This document shows, piece by piece, positions 13,831 to 31,356 of a stretch of DNA of 64,000 bases. A model generated the notes under the pieces. It was given only the letters and a program-made list of their open reading frames with translations, had not been told where the DNA came from and searched no databases. The translations under genes were made by a program, and so were the position numbers. Position 1 is the stretch's first letter; each line of letters begins with the position of its first letter. Origin of the DNA: Bacteroidota bacterium (lineage in GTDB: Bacteria > Bacteroidota > Ignavibacteria > Palsa-1295); contig JAUZNX010000007.1 in the NCBI GenBank assembly GCA_030706745.1, positions 62,001-126,000 on the forward strand, in the 5' to 3' direction.

Positions 13831-13842
13831 GAGGCGCTCGAT

Positions 13843-15267
13843 ATGACAAGCAAAAATACACTTCGGACAAGTAAAGCCCTGCGGTATGGACTACTGGCGC
13901 TGTTCGTCGCAATTCTCGGAGGAGCAGTCATACTTCTCTTGGGCAAGCGAGAAAAGCCAATGAGCCAGTCCAGTACCACGATGACATCGATTACCACGGC
14001 CAGCAGCACGCCCGAGATGGTCAGCTTGACAAACGAGGCGGTGGTCCGGTCCGGCATTACGGTTGTTCCGGTTGAATCAAGAGCGTTCACAAGCGAGCTT
14101 TCAACGGTTGGCGTGATCGAGATTCCTGAGCCGGCGCAGAAGACGATCGCCGCGCGTGCACGTGGCAGGATCGAACGGATGTTCGTGGCGGCCACTGGGA
14201 CGTATGTCCGCAAAGGCGATCCACTGTTCGAGTTCTATAGCCCAGATATTCTTAGTGCGGAAAAGGATTATCTCATCGCCGCCGGCGCTGGCGAGATGGA
14301 TCAAGGCCACACAGCCGGCATGGAACATCATGCGGACGCAGGACTTATGAGAGCCAACAAAAAGCGGCTTGAACTTTATGGGCTGAGCGAGGAGCAAATC
14401 CGTCAGTTTGGGGAAAGCCCCACTGTCGCCAATACGGTGACCATTGCCGCGCCAATGGACGGACTTGTGCTGCAAAAGCTGGCACAAGAAGGTTCATATG
14501 TCGATGAGGGCACCACGATTTTCCAAATTGCCGATCTCTCGATGGTCTGGGCCGAGGTGAATGTGCCTGAGCAGAATATTCGTTACGTTCACGTCGGTCA
14601 GTCTATCCCAATTCGCTCGGAAGCTTATCCTGATGAGAACTTTGTGGGTAAGGTTATCTTCATCTCGCCGGTGGAAGATCAATCCTCACGCACAATTCGA
14701 GTTCGGCTCAGCCTTCCGAACCCGTCCTACAAACTTCGTCCGCAGATGACGTTCACGGCGAGCATTCGCTCAGAACTTGGACGGTCCCTCGCCATTCCAC
14801 AAAACGCCGTCGTGAGAACCGGCACCGGAGACTATGTATGGGTGCTCGACTCTGGCAATATGTTCGCGCGGCACGATGTCACGCTCGGCCTACTCTCACC
14901 GGACAACTATTATCAAGTGCGAAGCGGCATCAGGTTGGATGATAGAATCGCCTCGAATGGCTCGTTCTTAGTCGATGCCGAGCATCAGTTCACGAAGAGC
15001 AATCCCATGGCCGGGATGAATATGGGCGAAACGGGAAATAAGAATTCCGGGGAGGGCACCGGAACGGTTCGTCGGATCAATACTGCGGACCAGACCATCA
15101 CCCTCGATCACGGCAATATCCCGAGCGTCATGTCTGCAATGAGCATGGCCTACAAAGTCGCGGATCCCAAATTTCTCCAGGCGGTACAAGTCGATGAATC
15201 CGTACGCTTCACTCTCACTCGCTCTGAGAGCGGTGAGTGGCTCATCACTGCAATTCGGGAGAAATAG
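13843..15267 (+). CDS. cusB: CusB-type periplasmic adaptor with C-terminal CusF-like domain
   Basis: 474 residues: one N-terminal membrane helix (YGLLALFVAILGGAVILLL), then barrel-sandwich and alpha-hairpin parts (ARARGRIERMFVAATG; TIAAPMDGLVLQKLAQEGSYV) and a beta-barrel, as in heavy-metal RND adaptors. A Met/His-rich insertion (GAGEMDQGHTAGMEHHAD) lies in the hairpin. After a linker with NPMAGMNMGE, residues about 405-474 form a CusF-like domain: TITLDHGNIPSVMSAMSMAY keeps the His and both Met ligands, but the position of CusF Trp44 appears to be Met. The domain would deliver Cu(I)/Ag(I) to the pump. cusA starts 2 nt after the stop. Confidence 0.9.
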   Translation: MTSKNTLRTSKALRYGLLALFVAILGGAVILLLGKREKPMSQSSTTMTSITTASSTPEMVSLTNEAVVRSGITVVPVESRAFTSELSTVGVIEIPEPAQKTIAARARGRIERMFVAATGTYVRKGDPLFEFYSPDILSAEKDYLIAAGAGEMDQGHTAGMEHHADAGLMRANKKRLELYGLSEEQIRQFGESPTVANTVTIAAPMDGLVLQKLAQEGSYVDEGTTIFQIADLSMVWAEVNVPEQNIRYVHVGQSIPIRSEAYPDENFVGKVIFISPVEDQSSRTIRVRLSLPNPSYKLRPQMTFTASIRSELGRSLAIPQNAVVRTGTGDYVWVLDSGNMFARHDVTLGLLSPDNYYQVRSGIRLDDRIASNGSFLVDAEHQFTKSNPMAGMNMGETGNKNSGEGTGTVRRINTADQTITLDHGNIPSVMSAMSMAYKVADPKFLQAVQVDESVRFTLTRSESGEWLITAIREK

Positions 15268-15269
15268 TC

Positions 15270-18200
15270 ATGGTCGAACGCATTGTTGATTGGAGTGCAC
15301 GGCATCGCCTGTTCATCATTGCCGTCTTCCTCCTCGTGTCGGTAGTCGGCGCATGGGCAATCGCCACAACGCCGCTCGATGCCATTCCCGATCTTTCGGA
15401 GAATCAGGTCATCGTGTTCTCAGAGTACATGGGCCGCTCGCCGCAGATCGTCGAAGATCAGGTGACCTTTCCACTCGTCACCGCGCTCCAAGGCCTGCCC
15501 AGCATCAAGGCCGTTCGTGCGACTTCGATGTTCGGCATGAGTTTCATCTATCTGATTTTTGAGGATAACGTCGACCCATATTGGGCGCGAAGTCGCGTCC
15601 TCGAAAAGCTTGCGACCGTTCAGGCCAGTTTGCCGGCTGGTACGAAAACGCAACTTGGTCCCGATGGCACCGGCGTCGGCCACGTCTTCTGGTACACGGT
15701 GGAAGGGAAAGGATATGATCTCGGAACGCTGCGCGCGCTCCAGGACTGGTTCATCAAGCCCCAACTGCAGTCGGTTGAAGGTGTTGCGGAAATTGCCTCT
15801 GTTGGTGGATATGTGCGCGAGTATCAGATCAATCTCGATCCCCTCAAAATGCAGCTCTACGATGTCACACTCGATGACATTACGCGCGCCGTAACTCGCT
15901 CGAACAATGCCGTTGGCGGACGTATCATCGAAGTGAATGGACGTGAGAGTTTCGTACGCGGTCAAGGATACTTCACCAGCGCAAGCGACTTTCGAGCGGT
16001 AAATGTCGCCACGCGCAATGGCGTAGCCATCCCTCTATCGAATGTGGCGGACATAACGATCGGCGCCGCTCCGCGTCGGGGGTCGCTCGATAAGAATGGA
16101 ACTGGCGAAGTAACCGGCGGCATCGTCGTCATGCGGACTGGCGAGAACGCCAAAGACGTGATCGACCGTGTGAAATCGCGTATTGCCGAGGTTGCGCCCG
16201 GCTTACCAACAGGAGTAAAGATAGAGACGGCGTACGATCGCTCCGAACTGATTGAAGCTTCTGTCGCAACACTCGAGCACACGCTGATCGAAGAAGCTAT
16301 CATTGTTTCCATCATCATCCTCATCTTCCTATTCCACTTTCCAAGCGCCTTGCGAATTGTTATCGAGATACCGGTTTCGGTTCTCATTGCGTTCATTCTG
16401 ATGCGGGCCTTCGGCATCACGTCCAACGTCATGTCGCTGGGTGGCATCGCCATTGGGATTGGAATCCTGGTCGATGCATCTATTGTGCTGCTCGAGAATG
16501 CTCATCGTCATCTTTCGGATGCCCAAACAAATAAAGAGCGCGATGGCACTGAGTATGACTATCGTGATGTCGTTATTCACAGTGCGCAACAAGTAGCGCG
16601 ACCGATCTTCTTTTCCATTATTATCATCGTCGTCAGTTTCCTCCCCGTATTTCTGCTCACAGGACAAGAAGGCAAGCTCTTTCATCCGCTAGCATTTACA
16701 AAGACATTCTCCTTGCTTGGCAGCGCGCTGGTATCGATCACACTGGTGCCCGTGCTGATGACGCTTCTCATGCGCGGCAAAATGCGACCTGAAGAGAAGA
16801 ACCCAGTGTCGCGTTTGGCACAGAAACTCTACCTGCCCACACTCGCATGGGCGCTCAAACACAAGAAGACTGCAATTGCTGTTAATGCTCTGGCGCTGGC
16901 CGTCGCAATTCCAATCGCGCTCGGTCTCGGCAGCGAGTTCATGCCACCGCTCGATGAGGGCAGTCTGCTATTCATGCCGCTGCTGGTGCCAAGCACCTCG
17001 ATGTCCCAAGCCACTTGCATCCTGCAAGCGCAGGATGCAATCATCAAGAGCTATCCGGAAGTCGAGCAGGTTCTCGGCAAAGTGGGTAAAGCAGAGACTG
17101 CGACCGATCCCGCTCCACAGTCAATGATCGAGACGATTATCCTGCTCAAGCCTCGTGCACAATGGCGCCCTGGAATCACCAAGGATAAGATCGTCGATGA
17201 CCTCAACCGCAACCTCCGCATGCCGGGCGTGGCACTCGGATGGACACAACCAATCATCAATCGGATCAATATGCTCACGACGGGCGTGCGAACCGATCTT
17301 GGGGTCAAGTTTTTCGGAAGCAATCTGGATACGCTCGATCGCCTCGCCTCTGAAGCCGAACGATTGCTTCGACCAATCCGCGGCGCGGCGGATGTAGCAG
17401 CAGAGCGAGTCAAAGGTGGATCGTTTTTGGAAATCAGTTTAAGGCCGGAAGCCGCGGGGCTGTACGGGCTGACGCCGGCTACCATCAACGACGTAATCGA
17501 GAGTGCGATTGGTGGCGAGAGTGCCGGAACAGTCGTGCAAGGCCGCGAGCGATTCCCAATCACCGTGCGCTATATGCAGGACTTTCGCGGGTCGGTTGAG
17601 GAATTGCGATCGCTGCCAGTCCCAGTCCCAATCCCGATCAGAGCGGGAGCAACGTTGTTGACAAGTCAAGCAGGCGCAGGAGCATCGGTCACGTCGAGCG
17701 ACGCGACAACCGAAATGGGCAGCGGAATGGGAACATCCAGCTCTGCCGGACAGGATAACACCGGATTGACCTCAGGCGGCTCACTTGCCGCCTCTCAAGC
17801 CTCGCAGTCAAATCTACTTTCGCCGCCTCCGATCTCACGAATCCAGTACGTTCCGCTCGGAGCATTGGCAAGCGTGGAGATCAAGGATGGTCCCGCTATG
17901 GTCTCGAGCGAGAATGGCCTCCTGCGTTCGATTGTCTATCTCAATGTCCGCAGCCGCGACATGGGCAGCTTCGTTTCGGAAGCGAAATCGGTATTGACGA
18001 AGGGTTTGCAGCTTCCAGTCGGCTACACGCTTTCGTGGAGCGGGGAGTACGAACAGCAACAGCACGCGGCGTCACAGCTCCGGCTGCTGATCCCGCTTGT
18101 GTTCTTCGTAATCTTTCTTTTGCTCTACGTGACACTCAAAGATTTCAAGGAAGCGGGCGTCGTAATGCTCAGTGTCCCATTCGCGCTCATCGGTGGCGTG

Positions 18201-18641
18201 TTCCTCATCGCGGTTCTTGGCATGAACTGGTCTGTTGCGGTTTGGGTCGGATTTATCGCACTATATGGCATCGCGACGGAGACCGGAGTGGTCATGGTCG
18301 TGTACCTGCACGAGGCGCTGGATAAGAAGCTAATTATAAAGGAAGGATCGATGACCGTTAAGGACATATATGATGCTACGATTGAAGGCGCGGTGCTCCG
18401 GCTTCGTCCGAAGCTCATGACCGTCGCAACCGCGATGCTCGGGCTCGTTCCCATTCTGTTCTCGACCGGGACTGGCTCCGACGTAATGAAACCAATTGCT
18501 GCACCGATGGTCGGCGGCATGCTAACAAGTGCAATTCACGTGCTGATCGTCACACCAATCATTTTCTATGTTCTTAAGGTGCGTGCACTTCACAAAGGAA
18601 CACTTCGTAAGAGCGAGATCTCCGGCTGGATGCACCATTAG
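15270..18641 (+). CDS. cusA: CusA-type heavy-metal RND efflux pump
   Basis: 1123 residues from the ATG at 15270 (MVERIVDWSARHRLF), 2 nt after cusB. It is a full RND transporter: PLDAIPDLSENQVIV, VSLG-type helices with GIGILVDASIVLLENAH (proton-relay Asp in TM4), and the metal-efflux signature ATDPAPQSMIETI followed by NMLTTGVRTDLGVKFFG. Met residues in the porter domain fit Cu(I)/Ag(I). About 70-80 residues of low-complexity Ser/Thr/Ala/Gly/Met (about 17639-17845) interrupt the porter domain between RSLPVPVPIPI and IQYVPLGALASVEIKDG, where homologues have a short loop. The reading frame is intact. The stop overlaps the convergent HD-domain gene by 4 nt. Confidence 0.93.
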   Translation: MVERIVDWSARHRLFIIAVFLLVSVVGAWAIATTPLDAIPDLSENQVIVFSEYMGRSPQIVEDQVTFPLVTALQGLPSIKAVRATSMFGMSFIYLIFEDNVDPYWARSRVLEKLATVQASLPAGTKTQLGPDGTGVGHVFWYTVEGKGYDLGTLRALQDWFIKPQLQSVEGVAEIASVGGYVREYQINLDPLKMQLYDVTLDDITRAVTRSNNAVGGRIIEVNGRESFVRGQGYFTSASDFRAVNVATRNGVAIPLSNVADITIGAAPRRGSLDKNGTGEVTGGIVVMRTGENAKDVIDRVKSRIAEVAPGLPTGVKIETAYDRSELIEASVATLEHTLIEEAIIVSIIILIFLFHFPSALRIVIEIPVSVLIAFILMRAFGITSNVMSLGGIAIGIGILVDASIVLLENAHRHLSDAQTNKERDGTEYDYRDVVIHSAQQVARPIFFSIIIIVVSFLPVFLLTGQEGKLFHPLAFTKTFSLLGSALVSITLVPVLMTLLMRGKMRPEEKNPVSRLAQKLYLPTLAWALKHKKTAIAVNALALAVAIPIALGLGSEFMPPLDEGSLLFMPLLVPSTSMSQATCILQAQDAIIKSYPEVEQVLGKVGKAETATDPAPQSMIETIILLKPRAQWRPGITKDKIVDDLNRNLRMPGVALGWTQPIINRINMLTTGVRTDLGVKFFGSNLDTLDRLASEAERLLRPIRGAADVAAERVKGGSFLEISLRPEAAGLYGLTPATINDVIESAIGGESAGTVVQGRERFPITVRYMQDFRGSVEELRSLPVPVPIPIRAGATLLTSQAGAGASVTSSDATTEMGSGMGTSSSAGQDNTGLTSGGSLAASQASQSNLLSPPPISRIQYVPLGALASVEIKDGPAMVSSENGLLRSIVYLNVRSRDMGSFVSEAKSVLTKGLQLPVGYTLSWSGEYEQQQHAASQLRLLIPLVFFVIFLLLYVTLKDFKEAGVVMLSVPFALIGGVFLIAVLGMNWSVAVWVGFIALYGIATETGVVMVVYLHEALDKKLIIKEGSMTVKDIYDATIEGAVLRLRPKLMTVATAMLGLVPILFSTGTGSDVMKPIAAPMVGGMLTSAIHVLIVTPIIFYVLKVRALHKGTLRKSEISGWMHH

Positions 18642-19288
18642 AGCGCACGGTTCTCGATGAGCAGCATCCTCATGGTTTCGAGCATTTGGAGATTATCGGC
18701 AAGCCCCGGCCCTGCTTGCTCCCTTGCGTAATCGGTGAAAAACGTATGGCTCCGAATGAACTGGATATTAATATCAAGCCATTCGAGATCGGTATATTCA
18801 CGGCCCAGCGCATGGAGGTGCTCTTCACGGAGTCGGTCGCTCCATGGCAAGAGTAGATCAGTACCAAGATAAAAGAGGTCTGCATCGCAGAGTACTTGCG
18901 CGATACGGCCGGTAGGCCGCTGCGGAATTTCGGTTGCGCGGATGCCTTCCTCCACATCCGCAATGATTTCGCTGCTGACCTCTCGCGCGAGTACTTCCCG
19001 TGCAAACTTGCAGCTTTCTTCCTCATGACCAATATAGATCATGTCGAAGCCGACATCATGGAGCCACGCGGCGATCAGAAGAATGGAAGTCTCAGCGTCA
19101 GAAAGACGGGTAGCCTCTGCAATCACGCGAGCATACTCGACCACCATTGCGGTATGCTCTACGCAATGATACCGATAACCGGGATGTAGCGAAGCGATCT
19201 TGCTGGTCGCAAATTCCTGGACCCGTTGAAGGACCAGTTTCATACTTCCATCCAGAATGGAGTTATCTTTGTACTGTGTCTGCGCCAT
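18638..19288 (-). CDS. HD-domain phosphohydrolase
   Basis: About 216 residues from the ATG at 19288 (MAQTQYKDNSIL); an in-frame ATG at 19429 would add an unlikely 47-residue N-terminus into the divergent gene. HD-superfamily metal ligands are visible: YHCVEHTAMVV, AAWLHDVGFD, IGHEEES and LCDADLFYLG. Proteins of this shape hydrolyse phosphate esters or phosphodiesters of nucleotides. It is divergent from the cNMP-binding transporter and cyclase genes, so a role in degrading the cyclic nucleotide is possible but not shown. Its 3' end overlaps cusA by 4 nt on the other strand. Confidence 0.8.
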   Translation of the reverse strand: MAQTQYKDNSILDGSMKLVLQRVQEFATSKIASLHPGYRYHCVEHTAMVVEYARVIAEATRLSDAETSILLIAAWLHDVGFDMIYIGHEEESCKFAREVLAREVSSEIIADVEEGIRATEIPQRPTGRIAQVLCDADLFYLGTDLLLPWSDRLREEHLHALGREYTDLEWLDINIQFIRSHTFFTDYAREQAGPGLADNLQMLETMRMLLIENRAL

Positions 19289-19326
19289 TCGATCGTCTTT
19301 GGACGTCTCGCTTCGTTCTGCAAGCC

Positions 19327-22300
19327 CTGAACCTTCGTTCAAATGAACGCCGTCCGGTGGCGCTCCTTTGGATGCACTCGTTCTGCCTGGGTGTGGGTGT
19401 TGCATATCTGGTTTCTGCTGCCCTTCCAATCTTCCTCGCTACCTTTCCAATCGATTATCTACCCATCGCATTCGCGTCCGCCGCGGTTCTGGAACTCATA
19501 ATAGCGTATGCCTCGGAGCATCTGGAGCGCACCATCGGACAAGCACGATTGCTCCGACTCGAACTACTCGCTTTGGTCGGCGGTACGATCGCCCTGAGGC
19601 TCAGTATGTTGGCCGGCTCGACAATTCCGACATACATGATGGCTTTCGGCCTGCTGGTATGGTCGCGCATCATGATCTATGTGACTGACGACGAATTCTG
19701 GGTGATTGCATCCCATCTGTTCGATGTGCGACAGGGCAAGCGCCTGTTCAGCCTTATCGATTCCGGCTCCTTCCTTGCAAAGATACTTGGTTATTTTTCT
19801 GTCCCGGTCATTCTCGCATTTTTTCAGGTGCCCGACCTTTTGATACTCTCTGCCATCGGAGCTGCCACAAGCCTCTATTTCCTTCAGCGGATCGTCGGCG
19901 ATTTCGGTCATGCTTTCGCGACGCATTCTGCGCATCAATCTCCAATAGCGAACCACTCCCAATCCCACAAGCACCGAATGGAGCCTGGCATATCCGTTCT
20001 TCGGAAGCGATCAGTCATGGAGTTTGTTCGCGCACACCGGTACATTGCAAGTGTAGCGCTCGTATCGTTTCTCGCAGTCCTTGCGACGACAAGTATCGAC
20101 TATGGCTTCCTGCGTCAGATCGAGCTTCGCAGTAAAGATATCGCTGAGATCGCGAATTTCCTCGGTCTATTTCTTGGTCTTGCCCAACTCATAAGCCTGA
20201 TTTTAAAAATCGGCATTGTTGGCCGGCTCTTTAACCGGTTCGGGTTGGCGCGAACCAGCATTGTGCTTCCCGTTGGTCTTTGTGCGATCACGGTTGCAGG
20301 ACTCATCGGAGCAATGGGCACAAAGGAATCGGCAATGATCTGGTCATTCACCGCAGGAATGCTATTTGTCCAACTATGGTCGGATGCCGTACACGTACCC
20401 GCGCTTGCCATTGCATTGCAGCCCCTTTCTAAGCGTGACCGACACAAGGGGCAGTATTTGGTCGGCGGTATCGCGGAGCCGATTGGGTTGGGTGTTTCAG
20501 CACTTTTGCTTTATGTCCTCTCAGTCTCCATTGGGTTCACACTTCTCGACATTAGTTACGCAATAGTCGGAGTGTTTGTCGCTTGGGCGTTTGCTCTCGG
20601 ATGGTTCGATCGGGAATATCGGATGATGGTCTTCCGCGCACTCAAACATCGACGACTTAACGAGGCCGAACTGGTCTTGGATCATGCGACACGACTGATG
20701 ATCGTCGAGAAGTTGCGAAGCATGAATACGACTGAAGCCGAATATGCTCTCCGGCTTATTCCGCAGACGGAATCTTCATTCTTTATCGACATCTTGCCCA
20801 TTGTTTTCGATCATGGCGATCGCGCGTTACGAATAGCCGCACTTCAGCGGAGTGAGGAATTCACCCTCACACCTGATCATCAATCACGATTATCCAACAC
20901 GTTGGAACATGCTATCCGAGTTTCCCAGGATCAGCCGGATGTTCTCGGCCCGATACTACAAGCTTATGGGAAGATCCATGGCGGATTCGACAACACTTCG
21001 GTGACTCGTTGGCTTGAGGATGAACGTCCGCAGGTGCTGGAGGGTCTATTGACGGGCTTGTTCAAGAGCCGGACGATGACGAATCTCAGAATCGCCAACG
21101 AGCATCTCCGGGCGCTGATGAATCACCCCGATCCCGCGCGGCGGACTTCTGCGGCAAGAATAATCGGTCGGGCCGCCGTCCAGGAGACCAACCCTCAGCT
21201 GTTGGCCCTGCTCGGCGACGAAAATGAGGACGTGCGTCTCGCAGCAGCGAATGCATCGTCGCTAATTGCACACCAGGATCTGGTCGAGCCTTTGCTTGAA
21301 CAGTACTTTAATATGGCAACGTCGCGGCAGTTCATGAGAGGGCTGGAGCTTTGTCTGTCGGCATTTGGGAGTCTCCTCATACCTGCTCTTGCTCGTCGCA
21401 TTGAGTCGGACGCCGTTGATGAAGCGCGGTTGATACGAGTTGCCCGGTTGCTAGGTCATTCTATTCGTGGAGAGGACCTGTCAATGGACGAACGGGCATT
21501 TCACGAGCTGGAGTCGCTTCTCCATTGGCCGCCTTCTCGGAGTGGTGACTTAAGCAATATTCGGCTCGTAACGTTGCGCGCGTTGCTCGGCGCCGTGACA
21601 AGATTGGATCGGACAAACCTTGGCGATCGCAGCCTATTCGACCGGCTGATCCGAGAAGAATGCGATCGGGTCTACGAGATCGCTGCAATCTTGTCTTTCG
21701 TGGATTCGATTCGCGCTGCTCCGGGGTTATCGCGAGCCGCCCGCTTGTTCCGAAGCACATTAGCATTCGAAATTGTTCGCGCCGCCGAGCGCCTGCTGCT
21801 GTTGCTGGGATTGCGATACGAACATCACACTCTGCTTCGCGTTCGTGACAGTCTCCTGTTGGGTGATGAACGCGACCGTGCAAATGCATTCGAAACACTT
21901 CATCACATCTTACCAAGTGAAGGCTCGAAGGACATCATCGCGGTGCTCGAAGCTAGTTTATTTTTGAGTGGAAGAGCCCATCATGGTGCCGCATTGGCGG
22001 ATATCATTTCCATGGGACCAATTGAGCGAGTGCCGCAGCAATTAGCGCTCGATCGTTTGATTTCAAACAAGGACCGATTCTATGGTGATTGGACGATCGC
22101 CATAGCACGCTATTGGAAGTCGAGCGAGTCAGTCGCTTCAGGGATCGCTGAACTTCATCATAATTCTACTGGAGGTGAACTTATGCCGTTACTATTTGAA
22201 CGCGTCATTCTCTTAAAGACTGTTGAGCTATTTCGAGAAACGCCCGATCCGGTAATCGCGCACATCGCACAGGCGCTGGAGGAAGTCCACTTCAAAGCCG

Positions 22301-22647
22301 GCGAAAACATTATCCAGAAGGGTGAAATTGGCGATTGCCTTTACATCATCGTCGAGGGCCGAGTGCGTGTGCATGCTGGCGTTCATTTCCTGACCGAACT
22401 CGGTACTCGAGATGTGGTCGGCGAGATGGCATTACTCGATCCTGAGCCACGTTCTGCTTCCGTAACGGCGATCGAGGAAACGACGTTGTTGAAGCTCCAG
22501 CGAGATGTGTTTTACGATCTGATGGCCGACAATGTCGAGATAGCGCGTGGCGCAATAACCACGCTCTCCAGGAAGTTACGGAAGCAAAACGAACAAATTT
22601 CGCATGCTGGCGAGGTTGCGGCCTCAAAGCCGGGGGTCGATACCTGA
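19327..22647 (+). CDS. Nucleotide transporter-like membrane protein with HEAT repeats and cNMP-binding domain
   Basis: About 1106 residues. The start is uncertain: family similarity (LNLRSNERRPVALLW) points to about 19327 (CTG), with a GTG at 19357 and an ATG at 19372 as alternatives; no clear ribosome site is seen. Residues 1-430 hold about 11-12 membrane helices with the FDVRQGKRLFSLIDSG motif of the Npt/ATP-ADP-translocase-like group. The middle (about 450-950) is helical and HEAT-like (ARRTSAARIIGRAAV, LGDENEDVRLAAANA). The C-terminus is a cyclic-nucleotide-binding domain with GEMALLDPEPRSASVTA, whose Glu and Arg are the residues that hold the cyclic phosphate and ribose. The next gene, 33 nt downstream, is a cyclase, so cAMP is a plausible ligand. 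Transport substrate is unknown. Confidence 0.85.
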   Translation: MNLRSNERRPVALLWMHSFCLGVGVAYLVSAALPIFLATFPIDYLPIAFASAAVLELIIAYASEHLERTIGQARLLRLELLALVGGTIALRLSMLAGSTIPTYMMAFGLLVWSRIMIYVTDDEFWVIASHLFDVRQGKRLFSLIDSGSFLAKILGYFSVPVILAFFQVPDLLILSAIGAATSLYFLQRIVGDFGHAFATHSAHQSPIANHSQSHKHRMEPGISVLRKRSVMEFVRAHRYIASVALVSFLAVLATTSIDYGFLRQIELRSKDIAEIANFLGLFLGLAQLISLILKIGIVGRLFNRFGLARTSIVLPVGLCAITVAGLIGAMGTKESAMIWSFTAGMLFVQLWSDAVHVPALAIALQPLSKRDRHKGQYLVGGIAEPIGLGVSALLLYVLSVSIGFTLLDISYAIVGVFVAWAFALGWFDREYRMMVFRALKHRRLNEAELVLDHATRLMIVEKLRSMNTTEAEYALRLIPQTESSFFIDILPIVFDHGDRALRIAALQRSEEFTLTPDHQSRLSNTLEHAIRVSQDQPDVLGPILQAYGKIHGGFDNTSVTRWLEDERPQVLEGLLTGLFKSRTMTNLRIANEHLRALMNHPDPARRTSAARIIGRAAVQETNPQLLALLGDENEDVRLAAANASSLIAHQDLVEPLLEQYFNMATSRQFMRGLELCLSAFGSLLIPALARRIESDAVDEARLIRVARLLGHSIRGEDLSMDERAFHELESLLHWPPSRSGDLSNIRLVTLRALLGAVTRLDRTNLGDRSLFDRLIREECDRVYEIAAILSFVDSIRAAPGLSRAARLFRSTLAFEIVRAAERLLLLLGLRYEHHTLLRVRDSLLLGDERDRANAFETLHHILPSEGSKDIIAVLEASLFLSGRAHHGAALADIISMGPIERVPQQLALDRLISNKDRFYGDWTIAIARYWKSSESVASGIAELHHNSTGGELMPLLFERVILLKTVELFRETPDPVIAHIAQALEEVHFKAGENIIQKGEIGDCLYIIVEGRVRVHAGVHFLTELGTRDVVGEMALLDPEPRSASVTAIEETTLLKLQRDVFYDLMADNVEIARGAITTLSRKLRKQNEQISHAGEVAASKPGVDT

Positions 22648-22680
22648 AATCCCCATGCAGCGGCAATTTGAACCTTTCCA

Positions 22681-25600
22681 TTGGAACGTTCCGTTGAAAT
22701 ACCGTTCAATTTAGTGCCGCCTAACAATCATTCTGTTCGTGTCGTCAAGGATACATTTCTTGCCATGAGTAAGTCGCTACTCAGCCAAAACGCTTGGGTC
22801 TCCGTTTATAAAGATTCCGATCAAGTAACCGGAAGCCCGGTTGTTGTGAAGACGCTCAAAAGCGAGTTTCCTACAGCTGAGGAGATTACGCGTTTAAATA
22901 ACGAATACGAAATCACGCAGCAACTTTCGATTCCCGGAGTCCGGCGAGCACTCCGGAAAGAAACGATCGACGATCGCCGGGCGCTCGTGCTAACTCACAT
23001 CGATGGGGTCACACTTCGGGAAGCATTCGTATCCGAGCGGCAGCCGCTCTCCGTGTTTCTCGACATGGCGATCTCGATCGCTCATTTGTTGGCTGAGTTG
23101 CACGCCGCACCGGTGATCCACAAGGATATTAACAGCAGTAATATCCTCGTCGATTTGCAGACTGGCACGGTAAGTTTGATCGATTTCGGTATTAGCAGCC
23201 GCATCGATTTTCGCTCCTCGTTTCTCGGCAACCCAGAAAAGCTCGAAGGAACACTCGCCTATATCTCGCCCGAGCAAACGGGGCGAATGAACCGCATGGT
23301 CGATTACCGCACCGACCTCTATTCGCTCGGTGTGACGTTCTACGAAGTGCTCTGTGGCTCACTCCCATTCGACACGAGCGACCCGGCGGAGTTGGTCCAT
23401 TGTCATATTGCGAAAGCTGCGACGCCGCCAACGACACGGAATCCCGATCTGCCAGACACGCTCTCGCGCATCGTGATGAAGCTTCTGGAAAAGAATGCGG
23501 AGGACCGATATCAGTCGGCATTCGGACTGCAATACGATCTCGAACGGTGCCGGGAGTCGCTTCAGCAACATGGCTTCATTGCTGACATGGAGCTTGCCAC
23601 GCACGATTATTCGGGCATTCTCCAAATTCAACAGAAACTTTATGGACGCGAGAAGGAAATCGCGCTTCTGCTCGATGCGTTCGATCGCGCAGCCGATGGC
23701 GCCGCGTCACCTATCCTTGTCCTCGGGGCTCCAGGCAGCGGAAAGTCCGCTCTCGTGCATGAGTTACATAAACGGATCAGCACGCGCGGCGGGCGATATG
23801 CCGAGGGCAAGTTCGATCAATTTCAGCGCGATATTCCCTATTCGGCAATCGGTCAGGCCCTCGCAGAGCTTGCATTATTGCTCTTGACCGAGCGCGATGA
23901 CGTGCTGGCCAAGTGGCGAACATCGTTACTGAGTACCCTTGGGACGTTGGGTAAGGTCATCACAAATCTCGTCCCACAATTCGAGTTGGTGCTCGGCCCA
24001 CAGCCGGATCTTCCCGTGCTCGGTGGCGCTGAGTCTCAGAACCGGTTCCAATACGCACTCAGTCAATTCTTCCTTGCACTTGCGACCGAAGAACATCCGC
24101 TCGTGCTCTTCATTGACGATCTGCAATGGGCCGATGCTGCATCACTTGACTTGCTCAAGCTCTTGATGAGCAGTCCCGAACACCGTCATCTTCTCATCAT
24201 TGGCGCCTACCGTGATACGGAGGCGGACCAAACACATCCGCTGGCGGTCATGCTTCGCGATGTATCCGATTCAGGTGTTGCAATTTCTCGGATCAATGTC
24301 CTCGATTTGACTCGCGACGACATATCACGTCTACTGGCCGACGCCCTGTTTCAGAGTCCGGAAGACATTCGAAGCTTAGCCGATTTGGTGCAGGAAAAAA
24401 CACGCGGCAACGCATTCTTTGTCCGTCAATTTCTGGCATCACTCGATGCTCGAGGGGCCCTCCGGTTCGATTTTAACGAACGCCGATGGCGATGGGATGT
24501 CACACAAATCCGACAGCTGAAGATTACGGATAATGTTGTCGAGCTTCTTGCGGATCGCGTGAAACAGTTGCCAGAGGATGTGCAAGGCGCGCTGCGATGT
24601 GCAGCATGCATTGGAAGCAGTTTCGATGTCCAAACTCTGTCTTTCATTTCTCGAAAGTCGCCGTTCGAGCTATCGCAGCTTCTTCGCACGGCGACGCTTG
24701 AGCGGCTCATCATGCCCGCCGACGAGCGGTATAAGCTAGTGGAAGCTGAAGAGAGCGCGACTTTGGGGCAAACGGCCACATTCTATTTCGCGCATGACCG
24801 CGTCCAACAGGCGGTGCATTCTCTGATCCCAGAAGAGGAACGGACAGCAGTTCACCTTGACATCGGTCGGCTACTCCTCAAGAATGTGCCACTTGAGCAG
24901 CAATCGGAACGTATATTCGACATCGTCTATCAGCTCAATCTAGGGCTTTCGGCGATAACGGATGCCGCCGAACGCCGATCTTTGGTCGAGCTCAATTTGA
25001 TGGCGGGGAATAAGGCGAAGCAGAGTTCGGCATACCAACCTGCATTTCTCTTCTATCGCACAGCAATTGGCCAACTGCCGCAAGATGTGTGGACGAGCAA
25101 TTACGGCCTTGCCTTGACGCTTTACACGGAAGCATCAGAAGCTGCTTACGTTACTCGTGATGCCCTATTGACCGATGCGTGGACTGATGCTGTGATTCAC
25201 AATGCACGCGATCCGCTCGAATCCATCCGCGCCTACATGATCAAGTTGGACGCCGCGATGGCCGTGAATAAGCATCAGGAGATGCTGCAGTTTGGTCTTG
25301 AAGTCCTGGCTAAACTCGGTGTGAAGTTCCCTCGTAAGCCCACAATGCTCCATGTCGTCCGGGCGCTCGCAGCTACAAAGATGCGACTGGCGGGCAAGAA
25401 GATCGAGTCGCTGGCGGAACTGCCGACGATGACGGATCCGCAAAAGACGTCTGCAATGACGATCATCGAGCGGGTGAGTCCTTCAGCATTCTTGACGGGC
25501 AGTCAGCTCTTCCCTCTCATGATATTCAAGATGGTCGAGCTCTCGCTCAAGTATGGTAATGGCGAAACGGCACCGTATGCTTATGGATCATACGCTATTA

Positions 25601-27873
25601 CGCTATCTGGAATCCTTGGTGACTTCAAAGCAGGTTTCCGGTTTGGCCAAACGAGTCTTGAAACACTTCGGCGGCATTACTCTGAAGACTTCGAAGTAAA
25701 GGTGCTCTTCGTGCTTGGGGTCTTCATCTATCATTGGAACAGACCGCTCAAAGAGACCTACGAACTTCTTCAAAAGTCTTATACCGCCGGGCTAAAGATT
25801 GGAAATGTTGCCACGGGATACTGGTCTGCATACTACAGGTTGTATTACCAATTCCTTGGTGGTGTCCCGCTGGCCGAACTCGAAAGCGAAGTTGGGACGT
25901 ACGCCGCTACATTTGCCAGAATGAAACACGATGGTGCCGTGATGCGCTCTGGGTTCTTGCGACAGGTCATCGCAAATCTTATGCACCCCTCAGCCGAACC
26001 GACACTTCTGAACGGCGAGCACTTCTCGGAGGAATTGATCGAAACGAATTCGGCCGCCGGGGTCGATAAGACTGGCACATTCGGATTCTATGGGATGAAG
26101 GTCATGCTGTCTTATCTTTATGGCGACACACCAGGTGCTGTAGAGAGCATGGAGCATGCGACGGCCTTGGTCGAGTCAGGCGTAGGGCTCGCGGAACTGA
26201 CAATGTTCCGGTTCTATGAGGCACTCGTGCGATTGCGGGCTGCCGAGGGGGCTATCTCCGGTGAACGAAGAACGCACGACAAGAAAGTGGCAGGCCTTCT
26301 TCGCAAGATGAAGAAATGGGCTGCGAGTAGTCCCGATAATTACTCGCATCGCTACCATCTCATACTCGCTGAGCGAGCGAGTAAGCGTGGCAACAAGGAG
26401 GAGGCCGGCGAACTCTTTGCAAAAGCACTCTCTGAAGCTCGTGCAAGCGGTTTCCTGCAAGATGCCGCTCTGACTGCCGAACTTGCCAGCGAACATTTTT
26501 CAAAGATTGGCGACAATAAGTCTGCGCTCGAATATAGCCGTACGGCGTATCAAGCCTATGAGCATTGGGGTGCACGCGCGAAAGCAGAGCACTATCTTGC
26601 CAGACATCCACAAGCTGCGTCGACTGAATTGATTGGGATCTCGGGCCATGGACACACCGTGAGCCATACATCTTCTCTCAGTCTTGATCTCTCGTCGCTG
26701 CTAAAAGCATCAACCGCGATTTCGAGCGCTGTTAGGCTTCGCACACTGATCGAGCGCCTACTGACGATTTGTATCGAGTCCGCGGGAGCGGAGCGAGCTG
26801 TGTTCTTGCTGCCGGAAGGTGACGGCTCCTGGAAGGAGCAAGCTATTGGCAAGGTCGAAGGACAGAAGATTCGCATAGACTTCCCGGAAGCATCTGATTC
26901 GATCGAGGTCTCCCCCGCCGTGATCCAGTATGTTAGCCGCACGAAGCAAAACGTCGTGCTCGTGCATGCAATGAGCGATCCGATGTTCGGACAGGACCGT
27001 TATCTCGCCGAAGGGCGTATGAAGTCCGTGCTTGGCCTTCCCATTATGAACCTTTCGACGTTGACCGGCATCTTGTATCTCGAAAACAATCTCGTTGCCG
27101 GAGCCTTTTCCCCGCAACGGATCGAGGTACTCCAATTACTGTCTGGTCAAATCGCAATTTCTCTCGAAAATTCCAAGCTCTACGAGAATCTCGAGCAAAA
27201 GGTCGAGGAGCGCACGCGCGAGCTCGCAAGCGAAAAACAAAAATCGGACGATCTCCTACTGAATATTATTCCCTATGAGACAGCCGAAGAACTCAAGCGC
27301 AATGGGTATGTCCAGCCTCGGAAATTCGATGAAGTAACGGTGATGTTTACGGATTTCGTCAACTTCTCGAGTGTGACGCGCGAGTGGACCGCCGAACAAG
27401 TCGTTCAGGAAGTTGACTATTACTTCAGTGCATTCGATGAGATTGTGGGTCGTCACGGGCTCGAAAAAATCAAGACCATCGGCGACAGCTATATGTGCGC
27501 GGCCGGTATCCGTTCTGGAACCGAGAACGGCACGAAGGATATGGTCGCTGCGGCCCGCGAGATCCTACAGTTCGTCGAACGCGCAAAAGCCAACACCGGC
27601 AAGATGCGAGGCGCATTCAATTGCCGCGTTGGGATTCATCTCGGACCGGTCGCGGCAGGAATCGTCGGGACAAAGAAGTTTGCCTACGACATTTGGGGGG
27701 ATACAGTCAATGTCGCTTCCAGAATGGAGTCGAACGGCGTCGGCGGCCGTATCAACGTTTCGGGTACGGTGTTCGAGCGCATCAAAGAGATGTACCCTTG
27801 CACATATCGAGGCCAGATCGAAGCGAAGAATATCGGAGCGGTCGATATGTACTTCGTGGAGTTGGCAGGATAA
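22681..27873 (+). CDS. Ser/Thr kinase-AAA ATPase-TPR-GAF-class III adenylate cyclase
   Basis: Up to 1730 residues from TTG at 22681; ATG at 22765 is the alternative. In order: a Hanks-type kinase domain (VVVKTLK lysine, VIHKDINSSNILVD, LIDFGISS, YISPEQTGR); an AAA-type ATPase (GAPGSGKSALVHEL Walker A, LVLFIDDLQWAD Walker B); a long TPR-like helical region; a GAF domain (about 1340-1500); a coiled coil (EQKVEERTRELASEKQ); and a class III cyclase. The cyclase has both metal Asp (VMFTDFVNFSS; KTIGDSYM), the adenine-selecting Lys and Asp (EKIKTIG; YDIWGDTVN), and the N/R transition-state pair (VNVASRME). ATP to cAMP is therefore predicted. Similar kinase/ATPase/GAF proteins usually end in a histidine kinase. 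No membrane helix is seen. Confidence 0.92.
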   Translation: MERSVEIPFNLVPPNNHSVRVVKDTFLAMSKSLLSQNAWVSVYKDSDQVTGSPVVVKTLKSEFPTAEEITRLNNEYEITQQLSIPGVRRALRKETIDDRRALVLTHIDGVTLREAFVSERQPLSVFLDMAISIAHLLAELHAAPVIHKDINSSNILVDLQTGTVSLIDFGISSRIDFRSSFLGNPEKLEGTLAYISPEQTGRMNRMVDYRTDLYSLGVTFYEVLCGSLPFDTSDPAELVHCHIAKAATPPTTRNPDLPDTLSRIVMKLLEKNAEDRYQSAFGLQYDLERCRESLQQHGFIADMELATHDYSGILQIQQKLYGREKEIALLLDAFDRAADGAASPILVLGAPGSGKSALVHELHKRISTRGGRYAEGKFDQFQRDIPYSAIGQALAELALLLLTERDDVLAKWRTSLLSTLGTLGKVITNLVPQFELVLGPQPDLPVLGGAESQNRFQYALSQFFLALATEEHPLVLFIDDLQWADAASLDLLKLLMSSPEHRHLLIIGAYRDTEADQTHPLAVMLRDVSDSGVAISRINVLDLTRDDISRLLADALFQSPEDIRSLADLVQEKTRGNAFFVRQFLASLDARGALRFDFNERRWRWDVTQIRQLKITDNVVELLADRVKQLPEDVQGALRCAACIGSSFDVQTLSFISRKSPFELSQLLRTATLERLIMPADERYKLVEAEESATLGQTATFYFAHDRVQQAVHSLIPEEERTAVHLDIGRLLLKNVPLEQQSERIFDIVYQLNLGLSAITDAAERRSLVELNLMAGNKAKQSSAYQPAFLFYRTAIGQLPQDVWTSNYGLALTLYTEASEAAYVTRDALLTDAWTDAVIHNARDPLESIRAYMIKLDAAMAVNKHQEMLQFGLEVLAKLGVKFPRKPTMLHVVRALAATKMRLAGKKIESLAELPTMTDPQKTSAMTIIERVSPSAFLTGSQLFPLMIFKMVELSLKYGNGETAPYAYGSYAITLSGILGDFKAGFRFGQTSLETLRRHYSEDFEVKVLFVLGVFIYHWNRPLKETYELLQKSYTAGLKIGNVATGYWSAYYRLYYQFLGGVPLAELESEVGTYAATFARMKHDGAVMRSGFLRQVIANLMHPSAEPTLLNGEHFSEELIETNSAAGVDKTGTFGFYGMKVMLSYLYGDTPGAVESMEHATALVESGVGLAELTMFRFYEALVRLRAAEGAISGERRTHDKKVAGLLRKMKKWAASSPDNYSHRYHLILAERASKRGNKEEAGELFAKALSEARASGFLQDAALTAELASEHFSKIGDNKSALEYSRTAYQAYEHWGARAKAEHYLARHPQAASTELIGISGHGHTVSHTSSLSLDLSSLLKASTAISSAVRLRTLIERLLTICIESAGAERAVFLLPEGDGSWKEQAIGKVEGQKIRIDFPEASDSIEVSPAVIQYVSRTKQNVVLVHAMSDPMFGQDRYLAEGRMKSVLGLPIMNLSTLTGILYLENNLVAGAFSPQRIEVLQLLSGQIAISLENSKLYENLEQKVEERTRELASEKQKSDDLLLNIIPYETAEELKRNGYVQPRKFDEVTVMFTDFVNFSSVTREWTAEQVVQEVDYYFSAFDEIVGRHGLEKIKTIGDSYMCAAGIRSGTENGTKDMVAAAREILQFVERAKANTGKMRGAFNCRVGIHLGPVAAGIVGTKKFAYDIWGDTVNVASRMESNGVGGRINVSGTVFERIKEMYPCTYRGQIEAKNIGAVDMYFVELAG

Positions 27874-27923: not shown

Positions 27924-30302
27924 TCAGTTCTTGTCCTGAGTCGAGCTAAAGACCACCTGATGATTGGTCCTTCCGAACTTCTTGCGCATCGCCTGACCAG
28001 CCAGGAGTCCGCTCGTTGCGGCGCCCTCGATGTAGCCAGCGTTCGCTCCATAGTTGGTCCAGTCGCCAGCTAGGAATAGGTTCTTATACCCTGACTCGTC
28101 CGGTTTTTTCCGATATTGCTTCGTGTAAGGTACAGACAGCGTGAAGCGCACCGAAGGATCGACATTCGCCTTGAAGAACTGTGAGAAGTACCTTTGATAA
28201 GAGGACGCGTTCGGATTGCTCGGATGGATCAACTTCCGGAAGTCGAACCCCATGGGAATTTCATTGAGCGTGGCATTGGGCCAAAATATTCCGGCGTTAT
28301 CGATGAGCCACTGTTCGCTCGAGTTTTGCACACGACGAAGTTCCTGCAATGGAAATCCGTGGTCGCTAAAATCGGGAATCTCTAATTCATCGCGAAGTGC
28401 CCCGCAGAAATAGACAAGGAAACCGGGTTTATTTGAAGCGTCCCAGTCCTCACAGTCGATGATAAGCGACATGTCGATCCAAGAATACATCGCGTCCTGA
28501 TAGCATACGGTGTTTGGCTCGGAGTCATCGCGCATCCCCCACGCGTTGAGATCAAAGCCCAACTCGCTGAGATTGGGTTTGATCCAGAGTTGCATGGACT
28601 GTGTCTGTGTCGTCTTCACATTCTCGATCATCTCCTTCCATGAAATGTCGTGTTCCATGATCTCGGTCGTGATGGATTTGAGAGCGGAAACCGGTATGGC
28701 CAGCAGTACTTCGTCAAAATCTGTACCCTTTGTCATTACACGAGCCTTCACGTCAGTCCAATCGCTCCAGGAGTTTTCGAGATCGACGTTCTTCGCCTGC
28801 ATTGCGCGGGCCTGATCGGGATCGATCTGATCATAGAGCGGCTCGGCTGGCCAGCACTGGAATCCTTTGAAGGGAACGAGCGGATCGTAGCCAGCCCCAG
28901 GATTCTTGAGCGTAACCTGATCGGCAATGGTGATCCGCTCGATCTCGCCGGTATCGGAATGGTGAATGTCGTGGACGCGCTGGAAGAACTTAAATTTCAC
29001 CCCGCGCGCCTTGAGAACTTGATAGATCGGCGTAATCAGGGTCTCACCCGTCCCACACCGGAATTTGAAGACGAACGCTCCCTTGTAGCCGAAGGCGAGC
29101 GTCGTGAGCCGCAGCGCGGTGCCTGCCGCGACTCGTCCCCCAGTCAAATCATCACCGTATTCGTTCTGGAAGATCCCGGTATACATGAAGCGCGTGATCG
29201 GAAACGCAAGCACGCGCTGGCTGGCACCGTGCATCGCGATCCACTCGCGGTAATCGTACTTCATGATCCGTTCGAAATCGAGTTCGTGCGTCACCGGGTC
29301 GTACACATCCTTCAGGATGCCCTTCATATTGACGACCATGAACTCGAGCATGGTCACGATGCGGCGAATCTTATTATCCTCCATCAATCGCTCCTTCACA
29401 CCATGCAAGAGCCACTCGATGAAATGATCGAGTCCTTCGATGATCGTTTCGTGATGTGGCACTCCAGTCGCGCTGACAATCGGCGTTCCCGTCTCATGCT
29501 GCGCCATCTCCTTCACGAGATCGTGGACGTGCGACAGCATCTTGACTTCGACACGAGCCTCAACATGCTTGTAGTCAGCCTCGATTTTTTCGACAAACCC
29601 ACTCCACCAATGTGGACGGGTGCTTGGTACTCCTCCAGCAGCAACGGTGTTCGAGCCTGACAGAACTGTCGATGCGACGACAGTCGTCGTGTTGCCGCCA
29701 CGCGAGACCTTGGGCAGCGGTGAATCGGCGTTGAGAGCTGGGATGTTCTCGCTTTGAGGTGGGAAAAATAAATCGAGAATCCATTTTTCCCAGGCCTCCT
29801 CCCCTGTTTGGTAGGGCGAACCGAGAATGGCCTCGAGCGCCAAAGCAAGCGCCTTGTCGAACAATTGCCAAACGGTGAGCGGTGGGCCATCGCCAGGTAC
29901 AGCGTCGTTGCCGGGAAAGACCATCGGCCAGTTGATCCAGCGGCCTTCCGTGGGACTGTACTCCATGAGCAGCGTGCCGTTATCCTCGATGAAGGCATCC
30001 TTCCATGTTTGGATCGGACAGTCCGGATCGAGTTTCTTGGCTTCGCGTTCGGCATATACATCCTGGATCAGCCGGAAGGCATTATTGTACCAGCCCTGCA
30101 TGATGTGGATACCGTGCTCCTCGATACGCATGTTGACGCCGCGGCCCGTGGCAGTCTTGCCACCCACGCGCCAACCACGCACATAGACCGTAATCTCGTA
30201 ATCATCCTGCCAACCATCGTAGTTGGTCATCTCATGAACGGCTGATAGGGCCGACATTCCCGCCCCTAGCACGGCGATCTTCTTCTTTTGCTTGTCACTC
30301 AT
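27924..30302 (-). CDS. FAD/NAD(P)-dependent oxidoreductase of the amine-oxidase/desaturase type
   Basis: 792 residues from ATG at 30302 (MSDKQKKKIAVLGAGMSALSAVHEM); the longer frame to 30479 runs into the upstream gene. The N-terminus is a dinucleotide-binding fold (VLGAGMSALS) with a second Gly-rich segment (GWRVGGKTATGRG), and the C-terminus has FLAGDWTNYGANAGYIEGAA, the FAD-binding end of phytoene desaturase/amine-oxidase proteins. At about 790 residues it is much longer than typical desaturases (about 500). It is the second gene of a two-gene minus-strand unit with an unrecognised 340-residue protein, 31 nt apart. The substrate is unknown. Confidence 0.82.
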   Translation of the reverse strand: MSDKQKKKIAVLGAGMSALSAVHEMTNYDGWQDDYEITVYVRGWRVGGKTATGRGVNMRIEEHGIHIMQGWYNNAFRLIQDVYAEREAKKLDPDCPIQTWKDAFIEDNGTLLMEYSPTEGRWINWPMVFPGNDAVPGDGPPLTVWQLFDKALALALEAILGSPYQTGEEAWEKWILDLFFPPQSENIPALNADSPLPKVSRGGNTTTVVASTVLSGSNTVAAGGVPSTRPHWWSGFVEKIEADYKHVEARVEVKMLSHVHDLVKEMAQHETGTPIVSATGVPHHETIIEGLDHFIEWLLHGVKERLMEDNKIRRIVTMLEFMVVNMKGILKDVYDPVTHELDFERIMKYDYREWIAMHGASQRVLAFPITRFMYTGIFQNEYGDDLTGGRVAAGTALRLTTLAFGYKGAFVFKFRCGTGETLITPIYQVLKARGVKFKFFQRVHDIHHSDTGEIERITIADQVTLKNPGAGYDPLVPFKGFQCWPAEPLYDQIDPDQARAMQAKNVDLENSWSDWTDVKARVMTKGTDFDEVLLAIPVSALKSITTEIMEHDISWKEMIENVKTTQTQSMQLWIKPNLSELGFDLNAWGMRDDSEPNTVCYQDAMYSWIDMSLIIDCEDWDASNKPGFLVYFCGALRDELEIPDFSDHGFPLQELRRVQNSSEQWLIDNAGIFWPNATLNEIPMGFDFRKLIHPSNPNASSYQRYFSQFFKANVDPSVRFTLSVPYTKQYRKKPDESGYKNLFLAGDWTNYGANAGYIEGAATSGLLAGQAMRKKFGRTNHQVVFSSTQDKN

Positions 30303-30333
30303 ATCGATACTCACGTTGATTGAAAATTCAGAA

Positions 30334-31356
30334 TTATGATTGGGGTACTGGGACGCTCTCGCTGCTCGGTTCTCGGACTGGCATCGTTGTCCGCAAGAGA
30401 TTACCGACAGTCTTAGGATACATCGAGTTGTTATCGATAAAGAACCGTTCGAGTCCTGGCGTATCCAGCCACTTCGCACTCAGACTGTAGATCTTCCGTA
30501 GAAACGGATGGATAAGCCATCGGTCCAGAAACGTCGCAAGTTCACCCATCAGGTGGTGATTTCGGTGCATTACCGCATTGATGTCATGAGGGTCCAACTG
30601 ATAACTGCGCGGATAAAAATCACGAAACAAGACGATGAACCCGACTGCAAATCCGCGCGGATCGCTCAGCCATTGGCCCAGCTTGCCAAAGGCGAAGTCC
30701 ATCCCCTCGACCATCGCCTGAGCGTAGAGCAAGCGGGTCAACACCTCATTCATAAAGACTTGCTCGTATTCCGATTCTAAATCTGCCTTCTCGATCGCGT
30801 CAATGTATCCAACGACGATGCTGCTATTATGCGACCGATACCAGCTAAGTCCGTTAGGATTATCGATGTATTTGAGCCAATGCCACACGGATGGCCCGAG
30901 ATCGTCCGGCAGAAGATATGGGCCGTCGGGTGAAATCGCCGGATAAATTAGGCCGGCAAGTTCGCTATCGAGCAGCAGGCGCGAATTCACTTTTCGCCAC
31001 CAATGGCTTCCAACAACTTCCCTGAGCTGGCGTTCGAGCTCCGCAACGGCTTGTTCTTCCGGGGATGAACGGCCCTCAGCAGTGACAGGGTTTAGAACAC
31101 CACGCTCCGCCTCCCATCCGAGAAATGCTATCTCGGAATTTCCGAGACCGTAGGAATCCGGAATATAGGCGTAACCGTAGTGCTTGTAGAACGCCTTGCG
31201 AAGGGCGATCCGTCCATCGGGATCGTCATGCACGGCGTGCACGGTCGTGCGGGCTTTCTCCTCCAGCTCGTCAAAACTTGTGGACAGCCGAATAGGCACT
31301 GTCCGATCAGCAGGCAAAATAGAAGGATTACTGCTCCTAAATGGATGGATCCTCAT
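30334..31356 (-). CDS. Unrecognised 340-residue protein paired with a flavoprotein
   Basis: 340 residues from the ATG at 31356. There is no signal peptide or membrane helix. It is rich in aromatic residues and likely helical, with striking segments such as FYKHYGYAYIPDSYG, GSHWWRKVNSRLLL, SVWHWLKYIDNP and MHRNHHLMGELATFLDRW. The HRNHH cluster could bind metal or haem, but this is only a guess. It precedes the flavoprotein by 31 nt on the same strand and the two are probably co-expressed. I do not recognise the family. Confidence 0.7.
   Translation of the reverse strand: MRIHPFRSSNPSILPADRTVPIRLSTSFDELEEKARTTVHAVHDDPDGRIALRKAFYKHYGYAYIPDSYGLGNSEIAFLGWEAERGVLNPVTAEGRSSPEEQAVAELERQLREVVGSHWWRKVNSRLLLDSELAGLIYPAISPDGPYLLPDDLGPSVWHWLKYIDNPNGLSWYRSHNSSIVVGYIDAIEKADLESEYEQVFMNEVLTRLLYAQAMVEGMDFAFGKLGQWLSDPRGFAVGFIVLFRDFYPRSYQLDPHDINAVMHRNHHLMGELATFLDRWLIHPFLRKIYSLSAKWLDTPGLERFFIDNNSMYPKTVGNLLRTTMPVREPSSESVPVPQS

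Follow-up and report, generated by a model that had tools for sequence, protein, structure and literature searches.

The locus described here lies on contig 7 of a Kapabacteria genome (3.8 Mb, 99.5% complete), within an analyzed stretch of 64,000 nucleotides (the window). Two adjacent genes occupy its forward strand, one for a membrane protein in which an NTT-like domain, HEAT repeats, and a cyclic nucleotide-binding domain (cNBD) are fused (19276..22647, +) and one for a Ser/Thr kinase-AAA-GAF-class III adenylyl cyclase (22681..27873, +). Given TTG 22681 as the start of the cyclase gene, they are separated by 33 nt (22648..22680, +), as had been described in a sequence-only reading of this DNA. 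A terminator scan found no terminator-like site in this gap, and the matches from consensus promoter and terminator scans were at chance level. GTG 19276 is the likely start of the NTT-HEAT-cNBD gene because its product, MSAPFDRLW..., lines up with the MSVPQQRRW... of the nearest relative, and it is likelier than the position proposed in the sequence-only reading (19327), where the codon is CTG and not a start. In profile searches of the 3.8-Mb genome, PF00211 and PF00027 each matched once, and both matches belonged to this neighboring pair; the probability of the two sole matches lying so close by chance is ∼0.003. With one class III cyclase and one cNBD detected, the source genome fits the earlier description of the pair as a self-contained circuit. 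A third gene, encoding an HD-domain metallohydrolase (18638..19288, −; PF01966, E = 2.3e-7), had no place in that description. It is arranged head-to-head with the NTT-HEAT-cNBD gene and overlaps its 5′ end, with a probable start at 19288 (the longest open reading frame extends to 19429). Directly upstream of the locus lie an OEP outer membrane efflux gene and an RND heavy-metal pump gene (12463-18641, +), the latter presumably CzcA-like, a name given by sequence reading. Downstream, and convergent with the cyclase gene, are genes for a FAD amine-oxidase-like protein and a 340-amino-acid protein without a Pfam match (27924-31356, −).

In the NTT-HEAT-cNBD protein (P0001), residues 1 to 430 (19327..20616, +) constitute the NTT-like membrane domain, as indicated by profile comparison and a Pfam TLC match just short of the cutoff. 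The HEAT repeats were detected by Pfam at residues 593 to 658 (21103..21300, +; HEAT_2, E = 7.8e-9), and residues ∼470 to 950 were all-helical in a structure model of low confidence (pLDDT 63.5, with the cNBD below 50). The cNBD itself (PF00027, E = 1.8e-21) spans residues 987 to 1069 (22285..22533, +) and contains, by alignment, the phosphate-binding cassette GEMALLDPEPRSASV (22420..22464, +), in which the pattern GE...PR.A is present with its Glu and Arg. The phosphate-binding loop is thus intact, as the sequence-only reading had stated, and is kept in four same-genus homologues with one M/L change. In the neighboring cyclase, Pfam recognized a protein kinase domain (PF00069; 22801..23514, +), an AAA_16 ATPase domain (23635..24201, +), a GAF domain (26737..27165, +), and Guanylate_cyc (E = 3.8e-48), the class III catalytic domain being placed at 27313..27861 (+) by Pfam and residue alignment. 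The domain anatomy proposed earlier (Pkinase, AAA_16, GAF, Guanylate_cyc, HEAT_2, and PF00027) was therefore recovered, except for the TPR part of the cyclase, for which a Pfam scan at E 0.1 returned no TPR family.

The catalytic domain of the cyclase could be aligned with the halves of mammalian adenylyl cyclases, and the full set of catalytic residues claimed in the sequence-only reading was found in place. The metal ligands are the Asp of FTDF and the Asp of KTIGDS, the adenine selectors are the Lys of EKIKTIG and the Asp of YDIWG, and the transition-state residues are the Asn and Arg of VNVASRM. By this residue set, the protein is predicted to be a class III adenylyl cyclase with cAMP as its product. 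On the side of the putative receiver, the C-terminal half of the cNBD (∼67 residues) aligned without gaps to chains of Mycobacterium tuberculosis CRP (PDB 3i54, 3h3u, and 3mzh) over the phosphate-binding cassette and the C-helix, although the latter protein has a DNA-binding domain and the cNBD here is attached to a membrane protein. The Gly, Glu, and Arg of the cNBD are kept in 71/74, 67/74, and 71/74 sequences, respectively. The position of Escherichia coli CRP Ser128, a residue that selects adenine, is occupied by Asn in the window cNBD and in most of these cNBDs. The same Asn is shared with the M. tuberculosis CRP chains, so that it does not decide the ligand, for which cAMP is the candidate.

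Pycsar likewise combines a class III cyclase with a neighboring cNBD effector, PycC being paired with PycTIR or PycTM. Accordingly, the window pair could be read as a Pycsar-like anti-phage system, in which infection would induce a cyclic pyrimidine from the cyclase and the cNBD membrane protein would be the toxic effector. PADLOC gave PycTIR as the best match of the cNBD (77 bits) and matched the cyclase to PycC (58 bits), and the cUMP sensor PycTIR carries Asn at the Ser128 position, as do most of the present cNBDs; but this Asn is also that of M. tuberculosis CRP, and the cyclase retains the adenylyl cyclase selectors Lys and Asp/Thr. Moreover, the membrane part is different, neither a TIR nor a Pycsar membrane effector is present, no defense gene was recognized among the scanned window proteins, and many complete genomes from two families retain the NTT-HEAT-cNBD gene. 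Pycsar identity, as defined by a pyrimidine-selecting cyclase together with a TIR or Pycsar membrane effector, was rejected, and we regard a defensive role of this kind as highly improbable.

The sequence-only reading had assigned the membrane part to the nucleotide-carrier type, and homology to NTT proteins is indeed found over the membrane domain. A profile built from the six nearest sequences matched NTTs in the PDB, namely, ADP,ATP carrier protein 1 (9j3n, E = 2.9e-9) and AtNTT1 (9j3j, E = 2.9e-7), which represent the plastid/chlamydial ATP/ADP translocases. The match to Pfam TLC/NTT (PF03219) reached 20.2 bits, just under the cutoff of 21, and a PF03219 search at E 0.001 was silent in all genomes, control genomes included, and hence uninformative. 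Foldseek matches of the low-confidence transporter model were MFS carriers; the comparison with NTT carriers by modeling, as suggested earlier, thus yielded an MFS-type match, beyond which the model was too poor. In AtNTT1, K155, E245, E385, and K527 are reported to be critical for transport or ATP binding (PMC3306366, PMC10654386). Three of these positions were mapped, on a numbering of chain 9j3j deduced from the 245/385/527 spacing: the E245 position is V/A here, without an acidic counterpart in the alignments; the K527 position is L388, with Leu in 5/5 genus members; and the E385 position is D258, with Asp in four of the five and Asn in one. R135, Q365, and R372, on the other hand, are conserved throughout the cNBD clade. 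The changes at the E245 and K527 positions make the assignment to nucleotide carriers doubtful, and the known ATP/ADP exchange mechanism is unlikely for this NTT-like domain. Thus, the membrane part, which differs from the translocases in its extra HEAT and cNBD parts as well, is probably not an ATP/ADP exchanger of known mechanism; it is a putative transporter.

The HD protein gave a good structure model (pLDDT 88). Among its top 50 Foldseek matches were many PDE5/6/10 entries, comprising human and trypanosome cyclic-nucleotide phosphodiesterases, along with other HD hydrolases, the best match being weak (E = 4e-3). The metal ligands H...HD...H...D are kept in all 42 linked homologues, and a His88-type ligand is found in 40/42. 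Considering that HD folds include cAMP/cGMP phosphodiesterases (PMC8177086), this protein may be a cyclic-nucleotide phosphodiesterase.

Within the genus, the transporter was found in four further genomes (G001, G002, G004, and G005; 41 to 56% identity over the main part), while two (G003 and G006) had neither the transporter nor a PF00211 match. An alignment-based scan with NTT-HEAT-cNBD matched only the four same-genus records, and a single-sequence scan of the genome contigs with P0001 gave no match. The HD gene occupies the same place in 5/5 genus members with the transporter. The exact pair is directly adjacent in only one of these five genomes, so that conserved adjacency of the two architectures, which the sequence-only reading had put forward as a check, fails inside the genus. 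A different cyclase lies within 10 kb in two more, bringing the genomes with a cyclase at this distance to 3/5 versus 0.04 expected. Specifically, a Zn-ribbon-cyclase-AAA protein is encoded beyond the HD gene in G004, and such a protein is encoded ∼10 kb from the transporter in G005; in G002, no cyclase was found near the transporter, and in G001, a kinase-type cyclase (33% identical) is on another contig, far from the transporter and next to an MpaB-like gene. Proximity of the two architectures was seen once elsewhere, in a member of another order (L189), where a kinase-AAA-GAF-cyclase is located 3 kb from NTT-HEAT plus cNBD.

As a separate observation, class III cyclases lie beside MpaB-like oxygenase genes (PF09995) in three genus members, those of G004 and G005 being included (L035, 786-6713, −; L036, 17004-19466, −, with L074, 3976-7293, −; and L070, 2-6821, −). 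These loci also carry desaturase, methyltransferase, or Pyr4-like terpene cyclase genes and possibly represent a second, lipid or terpenoid cluster linked to cyclases. The MpaB-like neighbors of the cyclases in G001, G004, and G005 count against the cAMP module proposed below; as the real partner of the cyclase, however, the MpaB-oxygenase cluster was set aside, being found in three genus members only.

Linkage was then surveyed by sampling the class, the phylum, and two other orders with NTT-HEAT profiles and analyzing ∼20 kb around 122 NTT-HEAT genes, the final batch of loci being hand-picked for spread over genera. A locus was counted as cNBD positive when the cNBD was fused or encoded by a separate open reading frame directly beside NTT-HEAT. 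Results revealed a class III cyclase in 37/71 loci with a cNBD but in 0/51 without one (Fisher 9e-12), corresponding to 20/39 versus 0/34 genera and 8/12 versus 0/17 families; with one random locus per genus, the median p was 1.2e-6. An HD gene was present within 600 bp in 39 of the 71 cNBD loci and in none of the 51 others. A cyclase or an HD gene occurred in 53/71 cNBD loci, and all 51 cNBD-less loci had neither. About half of the cNBD loci had no nearby cyclase, some of them being censored by contig ends (e.g., L104). When all neighbors were clustered without prechosen families, the HD gene ranked first as the most recurrent neighbor (26/39 versus 0/34 genera), followed by separate cNBDs, histidine kinases, and response regulators. 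Genome-wide co-occurrence was uninformative within the class since PF00211 was found in 214/294 genomes and the transporter in 11/294. The cNBD-less NTT-HEAT genes (L106-L108, L110-L135, L148-L149, and L202-L208) have their own recurrent neighbors, e.g., families of 970 and 421 amino acids in 14 genera.

The linked cyclases showed at least six architectures (REC-, TPR-, kinase-AAA-GAF-, beta-propeller-, Zn-ribbon-AAA-, and bare). In families f49, f56, f70, f74, and f81, the cyclases are of the response-regulator type and are accompanied by histidine kinases; the TPR type was found in f36; the beta-propeller, bare, and Zn-ribbon-AAA types were found in L164, L188, and G004, respectively; and the kinase-AAA-GAF type was found in the window genome and L189. 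Of 38 linked cyclase open reading frames, 36 span all six catalytic positions, and the complete adenylyl cyclase set (D, K, D, D/T, N, and R) is present in 34 of the latter. Since gene order and strand vary among the loci, with cyclases of Cytophagales-like genomes mostly lying on the opposite strand, a shared operon is not general. On the NTT tree, 19 changes of linkage state are counted, of which well-supported branches force at least 16; linkage that is maintained or re-established using different genes speaks more for a shared function than for a single gene order passed down by inheritance. The presence and absence of the cNBD, in turn, are separated by a single change on this tree, so that the contrast between 71 and 51 loci is phylogenetically one comparison, and an independent-pairs test, with one usable pair, had no power.

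This single-clade contrast would also be expected to some extent if the carrier-like gene simply resided, by history, in loci where kinases, response regulators, and cyclases abound, without a direct link between cyclase and cNBD. Such clustering of signaling genes is seen in f49 and f56, whose response-regulator cyclases lie within histidine kinase/REC clusters. Nevertheless, linkage was also found outside these two best-sampled families (13/35 versus 0/48), it extends to TPR-, kinase-AAA-GAF-, and bare cyclases, and the HD gene is linked though it is no two-component gene; we therefore consider clustering alone an unlikely, although not negligible, explanation. The clusters around the NTT-HEAT-cNBD genes of f49 and f56, in which histidine kinase, REC, and REC-cyclase genes lie together, are located at 12221-18421 in L100, 12525-16073 in L101, 3370-14296 in L104, and 12184-15054 in L109, and an S9-peptidase-like gene is common to L100 and L104.

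Another group of loci bears on whether the cNBD senses a ligand at all. In family f82 (L169 and L172-L175), NTT-HEAT-cNBD genes lie on long branches, with a degraded loop in 4/5, and neither a cyclase nor an HD gene is linked to them. The cNBD kept there despite the loss of most of the loop motif, like the degenerate cNBDs without the loop Arg in the sister set, would be compatible with a constitutive or vestigial structural domain that does not sense the cAMP of its neighbor. For the linked type this appears quite improbable, given that the ligand residues are kept in ∼95% of such cNBDs and that it is precisely the loci with a degraded loop that lack the partners. That f82 has mostly lost the loop and lacks both partners fits, instead, a functional module of cyclase, HD hydrolase, and cNBD protein.

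NTT-HEAT and NTT-HEAT-cNBD fusions have been described previously by Major, Embley, and Williams in 2017, as has a stand-alone cNBD gene immediately following NTT-HEAT, together with the proposal that cAMP derived from adenylate cyclase adjusts uptake (PMC5381601). The domain order of those fusions, NTT-like, HEAT, and PF00027 in one chain, is the same as here. The idea of a cAMP-controlled carrier, which the sequence-only reading had considered undescribed, is therefore not new. In the portions of that paper considered here, neither a linked cyclase nor a linked HD gene is mentioned, and full-text searches of later, mostly open-access literature returned none. Relative to those portions, the present data extend to cyclase and HD linkage over several families and an adjacent cyclase in the source genome. 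Overall, the new elements are the linkage evidence, its specificity for the cNBD form, the HD partner, the diversity of inputs to the cyclases, and the finding that canonical NTT residues have been lost. MloK1 (PDB 2zd9 and others), to which a sequence match was found, offers a comparison in terms of how the protein may work, since its membrane part is controlled by a C-terminal cNBD, as would be the case here, but that part is a K+ channel, whereas the protein studied here has an MFS-type carrier fold.

Taken together, sequence and genome context establish the domain anatomy, the intact ligand residues of cyclase and cNBD, and a linkage limited to the cNBD form. The cAMP link drawn in the sequence-only reading between the cyclase and the cNBD protein is supported by the cyclase residues, the CRP-like cNBD, and this phylum-wide linkage, although in the genus it holds more narrowly than that reading had it. 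We consider it fairly likely that the pair is one copy of a recurrent Bacteroidota cAMP module composed of an interchangeable cyclase, an HD hydrolase, and a cAMP-regulated carrier-like protein. In such a module, a class III adenylyl cyclase with a lineage-variable input part (here kinase-AAA-GAF) would make cAMP, which would bind the cNBD fused to, or encoded beside, the NTT-like MFS-type HEAT-repeat membrane protein. The cAMP-bound cNBD may then alter the activity of the membrane protein via the HEAT arm, by which cAMP would gate the membrane part, and the adjoining small HD metallohydrolase would likely end the signal by hydrolyzing the cyclic nucleotide. More tentatively, and with somewhat less than even confidence, we propose a phylum-wide relay, in which a carrier-fold protein, acting as a cAMP-gated MFS-type carrier or transceptor, would be controlled directly through its cNBD by a variety of sensor-cyclases together with an HD phosphodiesterase dedicated to this task.

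Known cAMP effectors include CNG channels, kinases, and CRP-type regulators, and we know of no characterized cAMP effector that is an MFS-type carrier or transceptor. To our knowledge, little is known of cAMP biology in Bacteroidota, and the NTT-HEAT-cNBD proteins have had no assigned function since their first description. With the linkage to a cyclase and an HD hydrolase, the speculation of 2017 becomes a module that can be tested and that comprises a producer of the signal, a possible degrader, and an effector. Moreover, the differences among the cyclase sensors of different lineages (two-component, TPR, and kinase-GAF) point to one output shared by many inputs. If the proposed relay is true, it would constitute the sole cNBD-mediated cAMP pathway detected in the source genome. 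The recurrence of the partnership suggests direct control of a membrane carrier by cAMP in Bacteroidota, and if cAMP does gate the membrane part, a directly cAMP-controlled carrier-fold protein would take its place beside CNG channels, kinases, and CRP-type regulators.
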